Positions 45,787-54,130 of a DNA stretch of 64,000 nt are shown piece by piece. The position numbers and the translations under genes are program-made. The notes beneath the pieces are model-generated. The model saw only the letters and a list, made by a program, of their open reading frames with translations. It ran no database searches and was not told the origin of the DNA. Within the stretch, counting starts at the first letter, position 1; the number at the start of each line of letters is the position of its first letter. Origin of the DNA: Halorubrum aquaticum (GTDB taxonomy: Archaea > Halobacteriota > Halobacteria > Halobacteriales > Haloferacaceae); assembly GCF_900113615.1 (NCBI RefSeq), contig NZ_FOPZ01000001.1, positions 186,001-250,000 on the forward strand. The letters are read 5' to 3'.

Positions 45787-47008
45787 ATGACAGACATCAC
45801 GGAGGCTTCGTCGGACACCCCGGCGGATCGAGTTCTTCCAGGGCACGATAGCTTCTAACATCGAAATCGGTCCTGTACGGATCTTCGACACGACGTTACG
45901 AGACGGCGAACAGTCACCACGTACTTCGTTCAGCTACGACGAGAAACGCGAGATAGCGGCGACGCTGGACGACATGAGGACCCACGTCATCGAGGCCGGG
46001 TTCCCGGTGAACTCCGAGGCGGAGTTCGAGGCCGTGAGCGATATCGCAGCCGCGACGGACACGACCGTCTGTGGGCTCGCCCGCGTCGTCGAGGGCGACA
46101 TCGAGGCCGCCATCGACTCGGGCGTCGAGATGGTCCACGTGTTCGTCTCGACGAGCGACGTCCAACTCGAGGACTCCATGCACGCGACGCGCATGGAGGC
46201 GAAGGAACGCGCGGTCGACGCCGTCGAGCAGGTGAAAGACGCCGGCGTCGAGTGCATGTTCTCGCCGATGGACGCCACGCGGACCGACCCCGACTACCTG
46301 ACGGAGATCGTCGAGGCGGTCTCGGACGCCGGCACCGACTGGATCAACATCCCGGACACGTGCGGCGTCGCGATGCCGACGAGCTTCGGCAAGACGGTGA
46401 AGGCGGTCGTCGAGGCGACGGACGCCCGCGTCGACGTCCACACCCACGACGACTTCGGGATGGCCGCGGCCAACGCGGTCATGGGCTTCGAGAACGGGGC
46501 CGAGCAGGCGCAGGTATCGGTCAACGGGATCGGCGAGCGCGCCGGCAACGCGGCCTACGAGGAGGTCGTGATGGCGGTCGAGTCGGTCTACGGCGTCGAC
46601 ACCGGGATCGACACGACCCAGATCACGAAGCTGGCGCGGATCGTCGAGGACGCCTCGGACATCCCGGTGCCGGCGAACAAGCCCGTCACCGGACGGAACG
46701 CGTTCGCCCACGAGTCGGGCATCCACGCCGCGGGCGTGATCGAGAACACGGACACGTTCGAGACCGGCGTGATGACCCCCGAGATGGTCGGCGCGGAACG
46801 CGAGTTCGTGCTCGGGAAACACACGGGTACCCACAGCGTGCGCAAGCACCTGGTCGAGGCCGGCTTCGATCCCTCCGACGGGGAGGTCCGCGAGATCACG
46901 AAGCGGGTCAAGGAGTACGGGTCCGGCAAGCGGCAGGTGACCGCCGGCGACGTCGAGCGGTTCGCCCGCGAGGCCGGCGTCGAGCGCGAGGAGGAGGTCC
47001 GGATCTGA
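45787..47008 (+). CDS. leuA: 2-Isopropylmalate/(R)-citramalate synthase with an N-terminal frameshift
   Basis: From 45791 an open frame encodes IEFFQGTIASN, the catalytic RIFDTTLRDGEQSPRTSFS, the metal-site VDVHTHDDFGMA and a conserved end, about 405 codons without a C-terminal regulatory domain. That frame has no start codon before 45974, which lies inside the catalytic domain. The ATG placed by the promoter (45787, MTDITEASSDTPADR) is in another frame that stops at 45858. Removing one C from the CCCC run at 45818-45821 joins them as SSDT-RRIEFFQG. So this is either a sequencing error, a real mutation or recoding. The enzyme condenses acetyl-CoA with 2-oxoisovalerate or pyruvate. Confidence 0.85.
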
Positions 47009-47157: not shown

Positions 47158-47163
47158 TTTATA
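47158..47163 (+). promoter_or_regulatory. TATA-like element for the ilvB leader transcript
   Basis: TTTATA centred 28 nt before the ATG at 47189. It marks a promoter of its own for ilvB and the genes after it, 252 nt upstream of the ilvB start codon, so the mRNA would have a long leader beginning with the leader peptide. Confidence 0.65.
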
Positions 47164-47188
47164 GGCGGCCCACGTGGGTTCGGATCGA

Positions 47189-47263
47189 ATGCGACGGTCA
47201 CGGTACACCCGCGCGGACGACGTTCGGACGGGAGCCGTCGCTGTAGCCATCGTAGGGGTTTGA
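47189..47263 (+). CDS. Putative ilv leader peptide (24 aa)
   Basis: The ATG at 47189, about 28 nt after a TATA box, encodes MRRSRYTRADDVRT followed by GAVAVAIVGV and a TGA at 47261-47263. The last ten residues hold four Val and one Ile, products of the operon, plus three Ala. The stop codon lies in the loop of the hairpin 47252-47271. This is the layout of bacterial ilv attenuator leader peptides, and the next gene is ilvB. It would be unusual in an archaeon. A chance short ORF cannot be excluded. Confidence 0.6.
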   Translation: MRRSRYTRADDVRTGAVAVAIVGV

Positions 47264-47271
47264 TCCCCTAC
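47252..47271 (+). promoter_or_regulatory. Leader hairpin 1 upstream of ilvB
   Basis: GTAGGGG (47252-47258) pairs perfectly with CCCCTAC (47265-47271) around a 6-nt loop TTTGAT containing most of the leader-peptide stop codon. An alternative partner for AGGGG, CCCCT at 47276-47280, would give a competing structure. A ribosome stalled on the Val/Ile codons would cover the left arm. Confidence 0.65.
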
Positions 47272-47336
47272 CACACCCCTTCCTCACCGACCCGACGTAC
47301 CGACGGACGCCGGCGCGCCGACTACGACTCGTCGAC

Positions 47337-47355
47337 CGCCGTCGATTCGACGGCG
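47337..47355 (+). promoter_or_regulatory. Leader hairpin 2 upstream of ilvB
   Basis: CGCCGTCG (47337-47344) pairs perfectly with CGACGGCG (47348-47355), leaving a 3-nt ATT loop. It lies 60 nt before the ilvB ATG, in a leader without other ORFs. No T run follows, so if it terminates transcription it is not by the bacterial intrinsic mechanism. Confidence 0.6.
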
Positions 47356-47414
47356 CGACCCGCGTCCGGATCGACCGACGCTCGAACTCGAGAGACACAA
47401 ACACACCACACACG

Positions 47415-49250
47415 ATGAGCGATTCAGCAGCACACCCACGAGAGGACGACCCCGACGCCGAGCCGGCGTCCGACCCGGCCGACGCGGACGGCCCGGGCGC
47501 GGCGGACCCGGCCGGCGAGGAGAACCGACCAGACGGCGAGACGCCGACGGCGGTGTCGACCGGCGCGGAGTCGGTCGTCGCCGCCCTCGAGGCCGCCGGC
47601 GCGGAGACCGCCTTCGGCGTGCAGGGCGGAGCGATCATGCCGGTGTACGACGCGCTGTACGGCTCGTCGATCCGCCACCTGACGATGGCTCACGAACAGG
47701 GGGCCGCTCACGCGGCCGACGCGTACGGCGTCGTCTCCGGCGAGCCCGGCCTCTGTCTGGCCACGTCCGGCCCCGGCGCGACGAACCTCGTCACCGGCAT
47801 CGCCGACGCCGACATGGACAGCGACGCGATGCTGGCGCTGACCGGGCAGGTCCCCACGGAGTTCGTCGGCAACGACGCGTTCCAGGAGACCGACACGGTC
47901 GGCGTCACGCGACCGATCACGAAACACAACTACTTCGCGGGCGACGCGGACTCAGTCGGCGACGTCGTCGGCGAGGCGTTCGAGCTCTCGCGGGTCGGCC
48001 GGCCCGGCCCGACGCTCGTCGACCTGCCGAAGGACGTCACGCTGGACGACACGGAGGAGTCGCCCGGTCCCGCGGAGGCGCCGGCGGGGACCGACCCGAA
48101 CCCGAGCGCCCGCGAGGACGCTGTCGCGGCCGCGGCCCGCGCGATCGAGGAGGCCGACCGGCCGCTGTGTCTGTTCGGCGGCGGCGTGATCAAGGGGGAG
48201 GCAAGCGAGGCCGCGCGGAAGTTCGCGCGCACGTACGAGATCCCGGTCACGACGACGATGCCGGGGATCGGCTCGTTCCCCGAGGACGACGAGCTGTCGC
48301 TCTCGTGGGCGGGGATGCACGGGACCGGCTACGCCAACATGGCGATCACCCACACCGACTGTCTGATCGCGGTCGGCACGCGGTTCGACGACCGGCTCAC
48401 CGGCGGGATCGACACGTTCGCGCCGGAGGCCGAGGTCGTCCACATCGACATCGACCCGGCGGAGATCTCGAAGAACGTGTACGCCGACTACCCGCTGGTC
48501 GGCGACGCGGGGACCGTCCTCGACCAGCTGTTCGAGGCGATCCACGAGGAGCCCGACGCGGACGAATGGCGCGAGCAGTGTCAGGAGTGGAAGGAGACGT
48601 ACCCGATGACGTACGCGACGCCCGACGACGAGCCGCTCAAACCGCAGTTCGTCGTCGAGGCGTTCGACGAGGCGACCGACGACGACACCATCGTCACGAC
48701 CGGCGTCGGCCAACACCAGATGTGGGCCTCCCAGTTCTGGACGTACACGGAGCCCCGAACGTGGGTCTCCTCGCACGGACTGGGCACGATGGGGTACGGC
48801 GTTCCGGCCGCGGTCGGCGCGCGCGTCGCCGCCGACGCGATGGGCGACGCCGACCGCGACGTGATCTGTTTCGACGGCGACGGCTCCTTCCTGATGACGA
48901 TGCAGGAGCTGTCGGTCGCCGTCCGCGAGGACCTCGACATCACGTTCGCGGTGCTCAACAACGAGTACATCGGGATGGTGCGCCAGTGGCAGGACGCGTT
49001 CTTCGAGGGGCGGCACATGGCCTCCGACTACAACTGGATGCCGGAGTTCGACAAGCTCGCCGAGGCGTTCGGCGCGCTCGGGATCCGCGTCGACGGCTAC
49101 GACGAGGTCGCCCCGGCGGTCGAGGAGGCGCTCGCGTACGACGGGCCCGCGGTGATCGACTTCCACGTCGACCCCGAGGAGAACGTGCTGCCGATGGTGC
49201 CGAGCGGCGGAGCGAACGGCCGGTTCGCGCTCACGGAGGACCAGCTATGA
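47415..49250 (+). CDS. ilvB: Acetolactate synthase, large (catalytic) subunit
   Basis: A 611-residue ThDP enzyme making acetolactate or acetohydroxybutyrate, the first common step to Val, Leu and Ile. The catalytic glutamate is E94 in TMAHEQGAAHAADAYG. The ThDP/Mg motif is CFDGDGSFLMTMQELSVAVREDLDITFAVLNN. GTGYANMAITHTDCLIAVGTRFDDR is also typical. The first 42 residues are an acidic, Pro/Asp-rich extension beyond the usual start at TGAESVVAALEAAGAE. Its stop overlaps the ilvN start, and its long leader carries the putative attenuator. Confidence 0.95.
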   Translation: MSDSAAHPREDDPDAEPASDPADADGPGAADPAGEENRPDGETPTAVSTGAESVVAALEAAGAETAFGVQGGAIMPVYDALYGSSIRHLTMAHEQGAAHAADAYGVVSGEPGLCLATSGPGATNLVTGIADADMDSDAMLALTGQVPTEFVGNDAFQETDTVGVTRPITKHNYFAGDADSVGDVVGEAFELSRVGRPGPTLVDLPKDVTLDDTEESPGPAEAPAGTDPNPSAREDAVAAAARAIEEADRPLCLFGGGVIKGEASEAARKFARTYEIPVTTTMPGIGSFPEDDELSLSWAGMHGTGYANMAITHTDCLIAVGTRFDDRLTGGIDTFAPEAEVVHIDIDPAEISKNVYADYPLVGDAGTVLDQLFEAIHEEPDADEWREQCQEWKETYPMTYATPDDEPLKPQFVVEAFDEATDDDTIVTTGVGQHQMWASQFWTYTEPRTWVSSHGLGTMGYGVPAAVGARVAADAMGDADRDVICFDGDGSFLMTMQELSVAVREDLDITFAVLNNEYIGMVRQWQDAFFEGRHMASDYNWMPEFDKLAEAFGALGIRVDGYDEVAPAVEEALAYDGPAVIDFHVDPEENVLPMVPSGGANGRFALTEDQL

Positions 49251-49900
49251 GCGGGGAGGACGCGGCCGGCATGCCCGGTCCCGCACCGGACGAGCGCCCC
49301 CAGCCGGAGGGGCGTCGAAACCTGGAGGGCCACCGGATCGACCCCGTCGTCGAGGCGGAACACGACTCCCGGCGCGCGGTCATCTCCGCGCTGGTCGAGG
49401 ACGAGCCCGGCGTGCTCGCGCGCGTCTCCGGGCTCGTCTCCCGCCGACAGTTCAACATCGAGAGCCTGACGGTCGGGCCGACGACCGTCGAGGGTCACTC
49501 CCGCATCACGATGGTGGTCGAGGAGACCGACCCGGGGATCGACCAGATCGAAAAACAAATGGCGAAGCTGAAGCCCGTTATCTCCGTGGGCGAAGTCTCC
49601 GGCAGCGCCGTCACGTCCGAGCTCGTCCTGCTCAAGGTTCACGGCGAGGAGCCGGACAAGGTCCACGCCGTCGCGGAGATGTACGACGGCCAGACGCTCG
49701 ACGCCGGGCCGGAGACGATCACGGTGCAGCTCACCGGCGACGAGTCGAAGATCGACGACGCGATCGACGCGTTCGACCAGTTCGGGATCATCGAGATCGC
49801 CCGGACCGGTCAGACCGCGCTCGCACGGGGGAACATCCCCACCGCGCCAGGAGAGAAACCCGGAACGGCCGGCGAACCGACGACGCCGAACACAGACTGA
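49247..49900 (+). CDS. ilvN: Acetolactate synthase, small (regulatory) subunit
   Basis: A 217-residue regulatory subunit. An acidic N-terminal tail of about 40 residues precedes the ACT domain ([36 protein letters not shown]). The conserved LVLLKVHG and C-terminal domain ([38 protein letters not shown]) follow. It binds valine for feedback control of IlvB. The ATG overlaps the ilvB stop as ATGA, ensuring coupled synthesis. Confidence 0.94.
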
Positions 49901-49910
49901 TCCACACACC

Positions 49911-50963
49911 ATGACAGAAGACGACAACCAGACGTTCGATTCGACAGTATACTACGACGACGACGCCGACAGCGAGGCGATCGTCCAGAAGACCGTCGCC
50001 GTGCTCGGTTACGGCTCGCAGGGGCACGCGCACGCCCAGAACCTCTCCGACAGCGGAGTCGACGTGGTCGTCGGTCTCCGCGAGGGCAGCTCCTCGCGCG
50101 AGGCCGCCGAGGGCGACGGGCTCCGCGTGGCGACCCCCGCCGAGGCGGCCGCCGAGGCCGACATCGTGAGCGTACTCGTTCCCGACACCGTCCAGCCGGA
50201 CGTCTACGAGGACGCCATCGAGCCGAACCTGGAGGCGGGCGACACGCTCCAGTTCGCGCACGGGTTCAACATCCACTACAACCAGATCCAGCCGCCCGAG
50301 GACGTCGACGTGACGATGGTCGCGCCGAAGTCGCCGGGCCACCTCGTCCGCCGGAACTACGAGAACGACGAGGGGACGCCCGGCCTGCTGGCGGTGTACC
50401 AGGACGCCACCGGCGAGGCCCACGACGAGGGGCTCGCGTACGCGGCCGCGATCGGCTGTACCCGCGCCGGCGTCGTCGAGACGTCGTTCCGCGAGGAGAC
50501 GGAGACGGACCTGTTCGGCGAGCAGGCGGTGCTCTGTGGCGGCGTCACCTCGCTCGTGAAGCAGGGGTACGAGACGCTCGTCGACGCCGGCTACTCGCCC
50601 GAGATGGCGTACTTCGAGTGTCTCAACGAGCTCAAGCTCATCGTCGACCTGATGTACGAGGACGGGCTCGGCGGCATGTGGGATTCGGTCTCCGACACCG
50701 CCGAGTACGGCGGGCTCACCCAGGGCGACGTCGTCGTCGACGAGCACGCCCGCGAGAACATGGAAGAGATCCTCGAGAAGGTCCAGAACGGCCAGTTCGC
50801 CCGTGAGTGGATCGCGGAGAACCAGGCCGGTCGACCCTCCTACACCCAGCTCCGTCACGCCGAGAAGAACCACGAGATCGAGGAGGTCGGCGAGGAGCTG
50901 CGCGGGCTGTTCGCCTGGCAGGAGGAGGAGGACGAGGAGGAGTCGGCCGAGGTGAAGGCCTGA
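49911..50963 (+). CDS. ilvC: Ketol-acid reductoisomerase, class I
   Basis: A 350-residue NADPH enzyme converting acetolactate to dihydroxyisovalerate. The Rossmann motif is [19 protein letters not shown]. The substrate and Mg region includes [35 protein letters not shown], and [19 protein letters not shown]. The acidic C-terminal tail ([13 protein letters not shown]) is a haloarchaeal extra. The stop shares a base with the following micro-ORF start (TGATG). Confidence 0.96.
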
Positions 50964-51064
50964 TGGGCGGGAGCGGCGACGCGAACCGCTCGGACGAGCC
51001 CGCGGGTTCCCGGAGTGATCCCCGATCCCGGAGTGATCCCCGATCCCGGAGTGATCCCCGATGA
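50963..51064 (+). CDS. Micro-ORF (33 aa) bridging ilvC and leuC
   Basis: The ATG at 50963 overlaps the ilvC TGA (TGATG). The 33-codon frame ([15 protein letters not shown], then SRSDPR three times) ends in a TGA at 51062-51064 that overlaps the leuC ATG (51061) as ATGA. Every gene boundary from ilvC to leuB is thus linked by overlaps. The peptide is low-complexity and unlikely to fold. Keeping ribosomes moving into leuC is the likeliest role. Confidence 0.5.
51008..51061 (+). repeat. Three 18-bp tandem repeats ending at the leuC start codon
   Basis: The unit TCCCGGAGTGATCCCCGA occurs perfectly at 51008-51025, 51026-51043 and 51044-51061. The last base is the A of the leuC ATG. Each unit contains GGAG, and in the third copy this sits about 12 nt before the ATG, so the putative ribosome-binding site itself is triplicated. 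The unit is a multiple of three and keeps the micro-ORF in frame. Confidence 0.92.
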
Positions 51065-52482
51065 GCGAGGGGACGCTGTACGACAAGGTGTGGGACCGCC
51101 ACAAGGTGACGGAGTTGCCGACCGGACAGGACCAGCTGTTCGTCGGGCTCCACCTCGTCCACGAGGTCACCAGTCCGCAGGCGTTCGGCATGCTGAAGGA
51201 GCGCGATCAGGAGGTCGCGTTCCCCGAGCGCACGCACGCGACGGTCGACCACATCGTGCCGACCGGCAACCGCGACCGGCCGTACCGCGACGAGGCCGCG
51301 GAGGAGATGATGGCCGAACTCGAGGAGAACGTCCGCGGGTCCGGGATCGACTTCTCCGATCCCGACTCGGGCGATCAGGGCATCGTCCACGTCATCGGGC
51401 CGGAGCAGGGGCTCACCCAGCCCGGCATGACCATCGTCTGTGGCGACTCGCACACGTCGACACACGGCGCGTTCGGCGCGCTGGCGTTCGGCATCGGCAC
51501 CTCACAGATCCGCGACGTGCTGGCGACGGGCTGCGTCGCCATGGAGAAACAGAAGGTCCGTCGGATCGAGGTCACCGGCGAGCTCGGCGAGGGCGTCACC
51601 GCCAAGGACGTCATCCTGACGATCATCGGGAAGCTCGGGACCGACGGCGGCGTGGGCTACGTCTACGAGTACGCCGGCGAGGCCATCGAGAAGCTGGGCA
51701 TGGAGGGTCGGATGTCGATCTGTAACATGTCCATCGAGGGCGGCGCTCGCGCGGGGTACGTCAACCCCGACGAGACCACCTACGAGTGGCTGGAGGGGAC
51801 GGACGCCTTCGAGAACGATCCCGAGAAATTCGAGCGGCTGAAACCCTACTGGGAGTCGATCCGGACCGACGACGACGCCGAGTACGACGACGTGGTCACC
51901 ATCGACGGCTCGGCCATCGAGCCGACGGTCACCTGGGGGACCACCCCCGGACAGACCGCGGGGATCACCGAGCCGATCCCGGACCCCGAGGACCTGCCCG
52001 AGGAGGACCGCGACACCGCCCGTCGCGCGCAGAAACACATGCGCGTCGAGCCGGGCGACACGATGGAGGGCTACGAGATCGACGTGGCGTTCCTCGGATC
52101 GTGTACCAACGCGCGGCTGAAGGACCTCCGCGAGGCCGCGGCGTTCGTCGAGGGTCGCGAGGTCGACGACGACGTGCGTGCGATGGTCGTCCCCGGCAGC
52201 CAGCGCGTCCGCGACGCCGCGGAGGCGGAGGGGCTCGACGAGGTCTTCAAGGACGCCGGCTTCGACTGGCGTGAGCCCGGCTGTTCGATGTGTCTCGGCA
52301 TGAACGACGACCAGCTCCAGGGCGACGAGGCGAGCGCCTCGTCCTCGAACCGGAACTTCGTCGGTCGGCAGGGCTCGAAGGACGGCCGGACCGTCCTGAT
52401 GAGTCCGATCATGGTCGCGGCCGCGGCGGTGACCGGTGAGGTCACCGACGTGCGCGAGATGGAGGAGGTGGCGACCGTATGA
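51061..52482 (+). CDS. leuC: 3-Isopropylmalate dehydratase, large subunit
   Basis: A 473-residue aconitase-family protein that isomerises 2- to 3-isopropylmalate (and citramalate derivatives). The 4Fe-4S ligands are in [10 protein letters not shown] and GCSMCLGMN. Other family parts are [33 protein letters not shown] and RNFVGRQG. It is the long single-piece form used with a separate small subunit. The ATG overlaps the micro-ORF stop, and its own stop overlaps leuD. Confidence 0.94.
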
Positions 52483-53135
52483 GCTCGCCCGAGTTCAGCG
52501 CCGGCGAGGCACCGGCCGAGAAGGTGACCGAGGTCACCGGGACGGGGATCCCCGTCCGCGGGAACGACATCGACACCGACCAGATCATCCCCGCCCGGTT
52601 CATGAAGGTCGTCACCTTCGACGGGCTGGGACAGTTCTCCTTTTTCGACCAGCGGTTCGACGACGACGACAACGAGAAGGACCACCCCTTCAACGAGGAG
52701 CAGTACCGGGGCGCGAACGTGCTCGTCGTCAACGCGAACTTCGGCTGCGGCTCCTCGCGCGAGCACGCCCCGCAGGCGCTGATGCGCTGGGGGATCGACG
52801 CCGTCGTCGGCGAGTCGTTCGCGGAGATCTTCGCGGGCAACTGTCTCGCGCTCGGGGTCCCGACGGTCACCGCCGACCAGGAGTCCATCGAGGCGCTCCA
52901 GGACTACGTCGAGGCGAATCCCGACGCCGAGATCGACATCGACGTCGCGGCCGAGACGATCACCTACGACGACACCGTGATCGACGCGACGGTCCACGAC
53001 GCCCAGCGGAAGGCGCTCGTCGAGGGCGTCTGGGACACCACGGCGCTGATGGGCGCGAACGCGGGGGCGGTCCGTGAGACCGCCCGGTCGCTGCCGTACG
53101 TCCCCGAGGAGGACGTTCCGGGGGACGGCGCGTGA
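52479..53135 (+). CDS. leuD: 3-Isopropylmalate dehydratase, small subunit
   Basis: A 218-residue swivelling-domain subunit of the dehydratase. Conserved pieces are [33 protein letters not shown] and [15 protein letters not shown]. The N terminus has about 20 extra residues before the core. It overlaps leuC at the start (ATGA) and leuB at the end (GTGA), so the three are translated together. Confidence 0.94.
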
Positions 53136-54130
53136 GCCACGAGATCGCCGTCATCGAGGGCGACGGGATCGGACGGGAGGTCGTCCCGGCCGCCATCGAG
53201 GTGCTCGAGGCGCTCGAGGTCGACTTCGAGTTCGTCGAGGGCGAGGCCGGCGACGCGGTTCGGGAGGCGACCGGCGAGGCGCTCCCGGCGGAGACGTACG
53301 AACAGGTCGCCGACGCCGACGCGACGCTGTTCGGCGCGGCCGGCGAGACGGCCGCGGACGTCATCCTCCCGTTGCGCGAGGCGGTCGACTCCTTCGTCAA
53401 CGTCCGGCCCGCGAAGGCGTATCCCGGCGTCGACGCGCTGCGCCCGGAGACGGACGTGGTCTTCCTGCGTGAGAACACCGAGGGCGTCTACGCCGGCCAC
53501 GAGGACCGGCTCAGCGACGACCTCTCGACGCTGACGCGCGTGGTCACGTCCTCAGCCTCCCGCGAGCTGGCCGAGTACGCCTGCGAGTTCGTCGAGGACG
53601 GTCGCGGGCCCGCCGGCGACCCCGAGGAGGGGTTCACCGTCGCGCACAAGTCGAACGTGATGCGCGAGACCGACGGGCGCTTCCGCGAGGCGGTGCTCGC
53701 CGTCGCCGAGGAGCGCGGCGTCGACGCCGACGAGGAGCTGATGGACGCGTTCGCGACGAAGCTCCCGCTCGACCCCTCACAGTACGGCGTGGTCGTCTGT
53801 CCGAACCTCGCGGGCGACGTGCTCTCGGACCTGGCGGCGGGGCTCGTCGGCGGGCTCGGCCTGCTTCCCTCGGCGAACGTCGGCCACGACAACGCGCTCT
53901 TCGAGCCCGTCCACGGCACTGCGCCCGACATCGCCGGCGAGGGGATCGCGAACCCGACGGCGGCGGTGCTCTCGGCCGCGATGCTTCTCGAGTACCTCGG
54001 ACACGTCGAGGAGGGCACGCGGGTCCGGACCGCGGTCGAGTCGGTGCTCTCGGAGGGCCCCCGGACGGGGGACCTCGGCGGGGACGCGACGACCGAGGCG
54101 GTCACCGCGGCGATCGTCGACCGGCTGTAG
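53132..54130 (+). CDS. leuB: 3-Isopropylmalate dehydrogenase
   Basis: A 332-residue NAD-dependent decarboxylating dehydrogenase, the last leucine-specific oxidation before transamination. Motifs are [67 protein letters not shown] and [20 protein letters not shown]. It starts with GTG at 53132 overlapping the leuD stop. Last gene of the ilv-leu cluster. Confidence 0.93.

Follow-up and report, generated by a model that had tools for sequence, protein, structure and literature searches.

Does an archaeal ribosome, by reading a few codons ahead of an operon, decide whether that operon is expressed? The ilvB locus of Halorubrum aquaticum raises this question. We analysed a 64,000-nucleotide stretch of its genome (the window), in which a 24-codon upstream open reading frame (uORF) of leaderless type precedes ilvB. 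The peptide that it encodes ends in AIVGV, so that the last codons read Ile-Val-Gly-Val-stop.

Ribosome-mediated control through leader peptides is a textbook mechanism of bacteria. In the enterobacterial ilv, leu, trp, his and pheST attenuators, the leader is rich in codons for the regulated amino acid, and the position of the ribosome decides which hairpin forms. T-boxes bind tRNA by RNA alone and need no translation. To our knowledge, leader-peptide control by the ribosome has not been described in archaea. The literature that we searched, which left most subscription journals out of reach, held no earlier archaeal description; such absence is not proof. A first, sequence-only reading of the locus had, to its knowledge, also taken leader-peptide attenuation as not established in archaea.

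The leader locus upstream of ilvB

The leader sits between leuA, which ends at 47008, and ilvB, which starts at 47415. Its parts and the genes behind it are as follows.

47158-47163, + strand: TATA box TTTATA, the leader promoter, from sequence
47189-47263, + strand: leader ORF MRRSRYTRADDVRTGAVAVAIVGV and stop, 24 codons, predicted leaderless; counterparts in 87 of 87 non-identical loci
47191-47198, + strand: 5' arm of hairpin P1, GCGACGGT, in codons 1-4; nearly invariant across Halorubrum
47234-47241, + strand: 3' arm of P1, GCCGTCGC, pairing with 47191-47198
47249-47254, + strand: candidate regulatory codons ATC (Ile) and GTA (Val), from codon counts in ilvB and valS leaders
47252-47258, + strand: 5' arm of hairpin P2, GTAGGGG, from sequence and stem counts
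47261-47263, + strand: stop codon TGA, inside the P2 loop; its place is kept across leaders
47265-47271, + strand: 3' arm of P2, CCCCTAC; exact 4-bp arm in 165 of 166 leaders
47265-47288, + strand: G-free, pyrimidine-rich tract with TTCCT at 47280-47284, from base composition after the arm
47264-47414, + strand: promoterless spacer up to ilvB; 88-282 nt among loci, length not conserved
47415-49250, + strand: ilvB, acetolactate synthase large subunit, first gene of the operon (TIGR00118 above cut-off)
49247-49900, + strand: ilvN, presumed on the ilvB transcript
49911-50963, + strand: ilvC, likewise presumed
51061-52482, + strand: leuC, likewise presumed
52479-53135, + strand: leuD, likewise presumed
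53132-54130, + strand: leuB, likewise presumed

The placing of ilvN-ilvC-leuC-leuD-leuB (49247-54130) on the same transcript as ilvB is presumed from gene spacing. P2 as a whole spans 47252-47271, and its loop, TTTGAT, holds the TGA. The sequence-only reading had described a TATA-like box, a 24-codon ORF, a stop in the loop of a perfect 7-bp hairpin and a gap of about 150 nt before ilvB. All are present in the sequence, the gap being 151 nt from the uORF stop to the ilvB ATG. Its placing of the ATG at 47189 also stands, but its spacing of 28 nt from the TATA box does not: the distance is 31 nt from the first T or 26 nt from the last base.

Every Halorubrum locus has TTTATA at -31 relative to the uORF ATG; many other haloarchaea have a TTTATT-like box at about -33. 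In 76 of 87 loci, a TATA box with at least 5 of 6 matches stands as far from the uORF ATG as a leaderless transcript requires, compared with 0.8% of random positions. The usual sign of a leaderless mRNA in haloarchaea, a TATA box some 25-33 nt ahead of the start codon, is thus present here. Because the distance from TATA to ATG is nearly fixed in the 87 loci, the transcript is predicted to be leaderless. Within the spacer, a TATA-like sequence occurs in 1 of 85 cases, and no separate ilvB promoter was found. By sequence, leader and operon share a single promoter upstream of both, as in attenuators. According to the dRNA-seq report on Hfx. volcanii (PMC4983044), 72% of coding transcripts in that species are leaderless.

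Conservation across the haloarchaea

The core of the leader, ATYGTAGGGG-(stop)-CCCC, lies upstream of ilvB in nearly all haloarchaeal loci fetched, in Halorubrum, Haloarcula, Natrinema, Halosimplex, Halorussus, Haloparvum and other genera. We built a covariance model from this core and searched it against the genomes of the order and then against a phylum-wide draw. Within the order, 361 of 394 genomes match the model (330 of the 347 good ones), with about one copy each. In the phylum-wide draw of 394 genomes it matches 73, every one within the haloarchaeal order; about 312 genomes outside the order (a figure obtained by subtraction) gave no match. Most of the model-negative haloarchaeal genomes inspected still have a diverged leader, whose last residues before the stop are VVGAR (L171), IVGA (L172), IVGALPR (L173 and L174) or VVVGAA (L177); the model-negative locus L175 has the stem GGGCC/GGCCC. 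Within the stretch read, no leader was found in L176 or in three small-genome lineages (L179-L181).

The uORF is in frame in every one of the 87 non-identical ilvB loci, at a length of 16-41 codons. At this G+C, however, an alternative frame is likewise open in all 87, so an open frame alone is little proof. The sequence-only reading had proposed a comparison of relatives. When this comparison was run, the uORF, the Ile-Val codons, the position of the stop and the hairpin proved to be kept, together with the TATA-to-ATG spacing and the G-free tract 3' of the hairpin, while the flanks drift: the remaining peptide varies, as does the spacer in sequence and length. That reading had also allowed for chance, Val and Ala codons being frequent at this GC content. 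Conservation of the core before ilvB rules out a chance origin.

In the window's own genome, only the ilvB copy of the leader is convincing. Elsewhere, a second leader with an IVG ending (L155, L157, L159 and L160; families f17) precedes a small ORF ending in MADVDHTPPHEAPGANRVFERGNEGRR and stop, not ilvB or valS. Its role is unexplained.

The leader codons follow the downstream gene

Weaker matches of the covariance model lie before the valyl-tRNA synthetase gene (valS) in other families. Here a paralogous leader, V-[F/R/V]-V-G-A-x-stop with the same hairpin, is found in several haloarchaeal families (L162, L164-L170, L225, L232, L238-L267 and others); valS of Halorubrum is without a leader. 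At two loci, L279 (G055) and L287 (G155), ilvB genes carry valS-like leaders, VLVGAL and VFVGAA before the stop, with no Ile codon. The gene behind this leader in G155 is a second ilvB-like gene.

Which codons does each kind of leader contain? We counted them in 166 distinct leaders, 125 of ilvB and 41 of valS; these are distinct sequences and not independent events, given the common ancestry of related species. In the search expression, GT and GGG were fixed but the third base of the Val codon was free. Even so, the Val codon is GTA in 125 of 125 ilvB and 41 of 41 valS leaders, compared with 15 of 3096 Val codons (0.5%) in ilvB coding sequence. Pairing is not the explanation: only 66 leaders offer the A of GTA a potential partner, at the base that follows the 3' arm, but the A is invariant in all. 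We read the invariant GTA as a likely decoding constraint.

The codon before GTA separates the two kinds. It encodes Ile in 121 of 125 ilvB leaders (79 ATT, 42 ATC) and in 0 of 41 valS leaders, where it encodes Phe (30), Arg (6), Val (3) or Leu (2). Nearly all valS leaders (39 of 41) have a Val one codon further upstream, giving Val-x-Val. With Ile and Val in ilvB leaders, and Val without Ile in valS leaders, the codons follow the gene product. Counted from the first base of GTA, the stop codon follows at 9 or 12 nt in 121 of 125 ilvB and 41 of 41 valS leaders; among the ilvB leaders its identity varies (TAG 72, TAA 31, TGA 22) while its place is kept. The conservation of the leader and the contrast in codons between ilvB and valS support the suggestion, made in the sequence-only reading, that translation-dependent control may exist here. 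The element is, very probably, a translated leader that senses amino acids.

The P2 hairpin and its surroundings

The 20-nt P2 hairpin has a folding energy of -11.7 kcal/mol; for the 40 nt around it, the energy is about 5 s.d. lower than in mononucleotide shuffles. Covariation could not be read from a MAFFT alignment, since loops of different length put the 3' arms out of register; stems were counted in each sequence instead. A compensatory change from GGGG/CCCC to GGGC/GCCC occurs in 5 leaders, and the next pair inward alternates between C-G and T-A. Downstream of P2 there is almost no G for 15-20 nt (2-3% at positions 1-15), and among the 1933 CCCC sites elsewhere in the loci, not one is followed by a G-free run of at least 18. 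The tract is rich in C and U, with T peaking at about 40% at 11-15 nt past the arm, and no U-run follows P2. A hairpin followed by a G-free tract with a T peak is terminator-like in its anatomy.

P1 involves the first codons of the uORF. Stems of other sequence occur at the matching place in several clades besides Halorubrum, and 47% of loci, many of them Halorubrum, reach the 5% level against shuffles. No alternative (antiterminator) fold common to all clades was found. In Halorubrum only, inspection by eye suggests that the P1 3' arm could pair with a downstream GCGACG. Rfam, T-box included, gave no match at the gathering threshold in the whole window.

A proposed mechanism and its alternatives

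How might such a leader work? From the conservation, codon specificity, base pairing and promoter spacing seen in these sequences we infer translation of the uORF, stalling, amino acid sensing, polarity and, as the output, termination. That the leader exerts ribosome-mediated, amino-acid-specific control in an archaeon, with a termination-type scheme as the best explanation, we regard as probable. In this scheme the mRNA would begin at or near the uORF AUG, so ribosomes would engage the emerging leaderless 5' end while transcription proceeds. They would then translate towards the last codons, Ile (ATY), Val (GTA) and Gly (GGG), of which those for Val and Gly lie in or adjoin the 5' arm of P2. 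When Ile- and Val-tRNA are charged, the ribosome would reach the stop and leave, P2 would fold beside the pyrimidine tract, and the folded hairpin, alone or with a factor, would stop RNA polymerase early (or leave the transcript unproductive). When Ile or Val is short, the ribosome would stall on ATY-GTA, the 5' arm of P2 would stay covered, and ilvBNC-leuCDB would be expressed. P1 may be a pause hairpin that gives the ribosome time to catch up. The valS leader would be the same device with Val-x-Val, and the leader of pheS, described below, the Phe counterpart, built on another hairpin. The scheme demands rapid release, since P2 would be covered also by a ribosome that lingers at the stop.

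As to the output, we lean somewhat towards transcription termination. The spacer is long, variable and promoterless, which favours an output at the leader itself and argues against masking of the ilvB start. Against the scheme, an intrinsic terminator would be expected to have more T in its tract, and Halorubrum valS, like every ileS gene examined, lacks a leader. Neither the ilvB nor the valS uORF appears in the Hfx. volcanii uORF table (PMC4983044).

The same Ile/Val-sensing leader might instead act through mRNA decay or through re-initiation at ilvB, and not through termination of RNA polymerase. The weak U-tract fits such an output, and a stop inside the hairpin could govern what the ribosome does after release. 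The spacer, however, ranges over 88-282 nt among loci; re-initiation is reported, in a published view cited in PMC12186497, to require overlaps or very short distances; and we saw no conserved feature that would mask the ilvB start. We consider this output unlikely, if still worth keeping in mind.

A sensing leader of either kind depends on charged tRNA. For an arrest peptide this would be irrelevant: the nascent sequence (I/F/R)VG(A/V) would stall near the stop on a metabolite. Val-Gly-Ala/Val before the stop is indeed kept in both ilvB and valS leaders, but the codon is fixed as well. A constraint on the peptide alone would admit GTC or GTG, so the fixation of GTA (166 of 166, with 0.5% expected) counts against arrest, as does the residue preceding Val, which follows the gene: Ile for ilvB, and Phe, Arg, Val or Leu for valS. 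The mark of arrest peptides of the TnaC/SecM type, conserved residues with free synonymous codons, is not what these leaders display. We find this explanation improbable.

Similar observations bear on the idea that GTAGGGG...CCCC is a site bound by a protein or small RNA and lies within a frame that is open by chance. GTAGGGG is conserved at the nucleotide level and the G-free tract could be a protein site. Yet ATY varies at its third base only, within the set read as Ile; the stop changes identity and not place; the stem bases change in compensating pairs; and Ile and Val follow the controlled gene. Such a site is very improbable. A small functional protein gene without regulatory role, for which a conserved ORF with its own promoter might speak, is hardly credible and was rejected: its length varies from 16 to 41 codons, only the C-terminal end is kept, and in codons 2-18 the synonymous share (0.304) equals that of the column-permuted null (0.304), so there is no protein selection in the N-terminal half.

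Leaders before other amino acid genes

A 26-aa uORF before pheS and a 23-aa uORF before a trpS are given for Hfx. volcanii in the dRNA-seq report (PMC4983044). Because of the former, we examined regions upstream of pheS (L294 from the window's own genome, and L289-L305). In 15 of 20 genomes pheS is preceded by a Phe-rich, leaderless-type uORF of 24-29 codons, with ends such as GFGFFFAA and FGFFFN before the stop and, in the own genome (L294, C25), FEPFFD. Unlike the ilvB type, the pheS leader has strong GC hairpins 3' of the stop; as an independent case, it adds weight to the sensing reading. The leader codons match the downstream gene in each case: ilvB has Ile and Val, valS has Val and pheS has Phe. 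In loci L289-L305 a conserved CGGAACCGTTA element, possibly a second promoter, separates the Phe leader from pheS and lies some 45 nt upstream of the start of that gene.

Leaders are not general to amino acid genes: none was seen at any ileS gene examined, and trpC likewise lacks a leader ORF. Among the genomes examined, no convincing leader was found on the PF00579 synthetases TrpRS and TyrRS. The conserved promoter block directly upstream of trpC (L339-L351) contains CTTATGNACAGATACGTNCATTAGTGTACA and a GTAC-type dyad, which suggests a DNA-binding regulator instead of a leader.

An apparent frameshift in leuA

The gene upstream of the leader, leuA, has no usable start in its own frame. To reach its conserved N-terminal region, EFFQGT...DTTLRDGEQSP, translation would have to shift by +1 out of an ORF that begins with ATG, MTDITEASSDTPADRVLPGHDSF and stop, which overlaps the start-less leuA frame at TCGAGTTCTTC (45828-45838, within the region 45787-45975). 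We compared leuA loci L031-L110. The site is present in 73 of 75 haloarchaeal loci, and 52 of the 75 have no ATG, GTG or TTG in the leuA frame; in locus L096 the frames are naturally fused. The site contains CTT, a rare codon that makes up 2% of Leu codons. From these sequences, leuA seems to require a conserved +1 ribosomal frameshift; the site looks like a programmed one, and could answer to leucine. The reviews on archaeal frameshifting that we consulted mention +1 shifts only for a haloarchaeal virus.

We propose tentatively, at somewhat short of even confidence, that haloarchaea possess a class of translation-sensing leaders (ilvB, valS, pheS and perhaps trpS) that arose independently of bacterial attenuators, and that the rare CTT of leuA is the site of a +1 frameshift which responds to leucine and on which LeuA production depends.

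Relation to known systems and significance

The haloarchaeal leader resembles enterobacterial attenuators in having P1 where the pause hairpin sits, and a pheS version occurs in both. It differs in that there is no Shine-Dalgarno leader, no demonstrated antiterminator and no U-run, and in that polymerase and ribosome are archaeal. Like the bacterial T-box, it would use charged tRNA to adjust a synthetase gene such as valS to one particular amino acid. The sequence-only reading had called the leader bacterial-style. This fits its logic but not every part, since no bacterial-type antiterminator was found; lacking a U-run, the leader is not classed as a member of the bacterial attenuator family. 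We describe it as an element that works like an attenuator, not filed as the bacterial kind.

The nearest known arrangement is the actinobacterial ilvB leader of Corynebacterium, Mycobacterium and Streptomyces (Seliverstov et al. 2005, PMC1262725). There, too, a short ORF with Ile, Val or Leu codons precedes ilvB, and the codons overlap a candidate terminator hairpin. The two belong to different domains of life. Actinobacterial hairpins are followed by poly-U runs, the haloarchaeal hairpin by a G-free CU tract with few U; and the haloarchaeal leaders, unlike the actinobacterial ones, have a leaderless start, the stop in the loop and one fixed rare pair, ATY GTA, in place of codon runs. In Streptomyces coelicolor, mutating the candidate codons of a similar ilvB leader had no effect (PMC1262725); by analogy, this null result is a warning for our reading. 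The Hfx. volcanii uORFs (Babski et al. 2016, PMC4983044) are likewise small ORFs behind mapped transcript starts. In the parts available, that report gives no codon analysis and proposes no amino acid regulation.

If the proposed control is real, archaeal transcription and translation would have to run in such close step that a ribosome can gate its own operon, and amino acid sensors would sit on leaderless mRNAs, which are the main class in haloarchaea. In a haloarchaeon amenable to genetics, the contrast between ilvB and valS allows a direct test of the codon logic.
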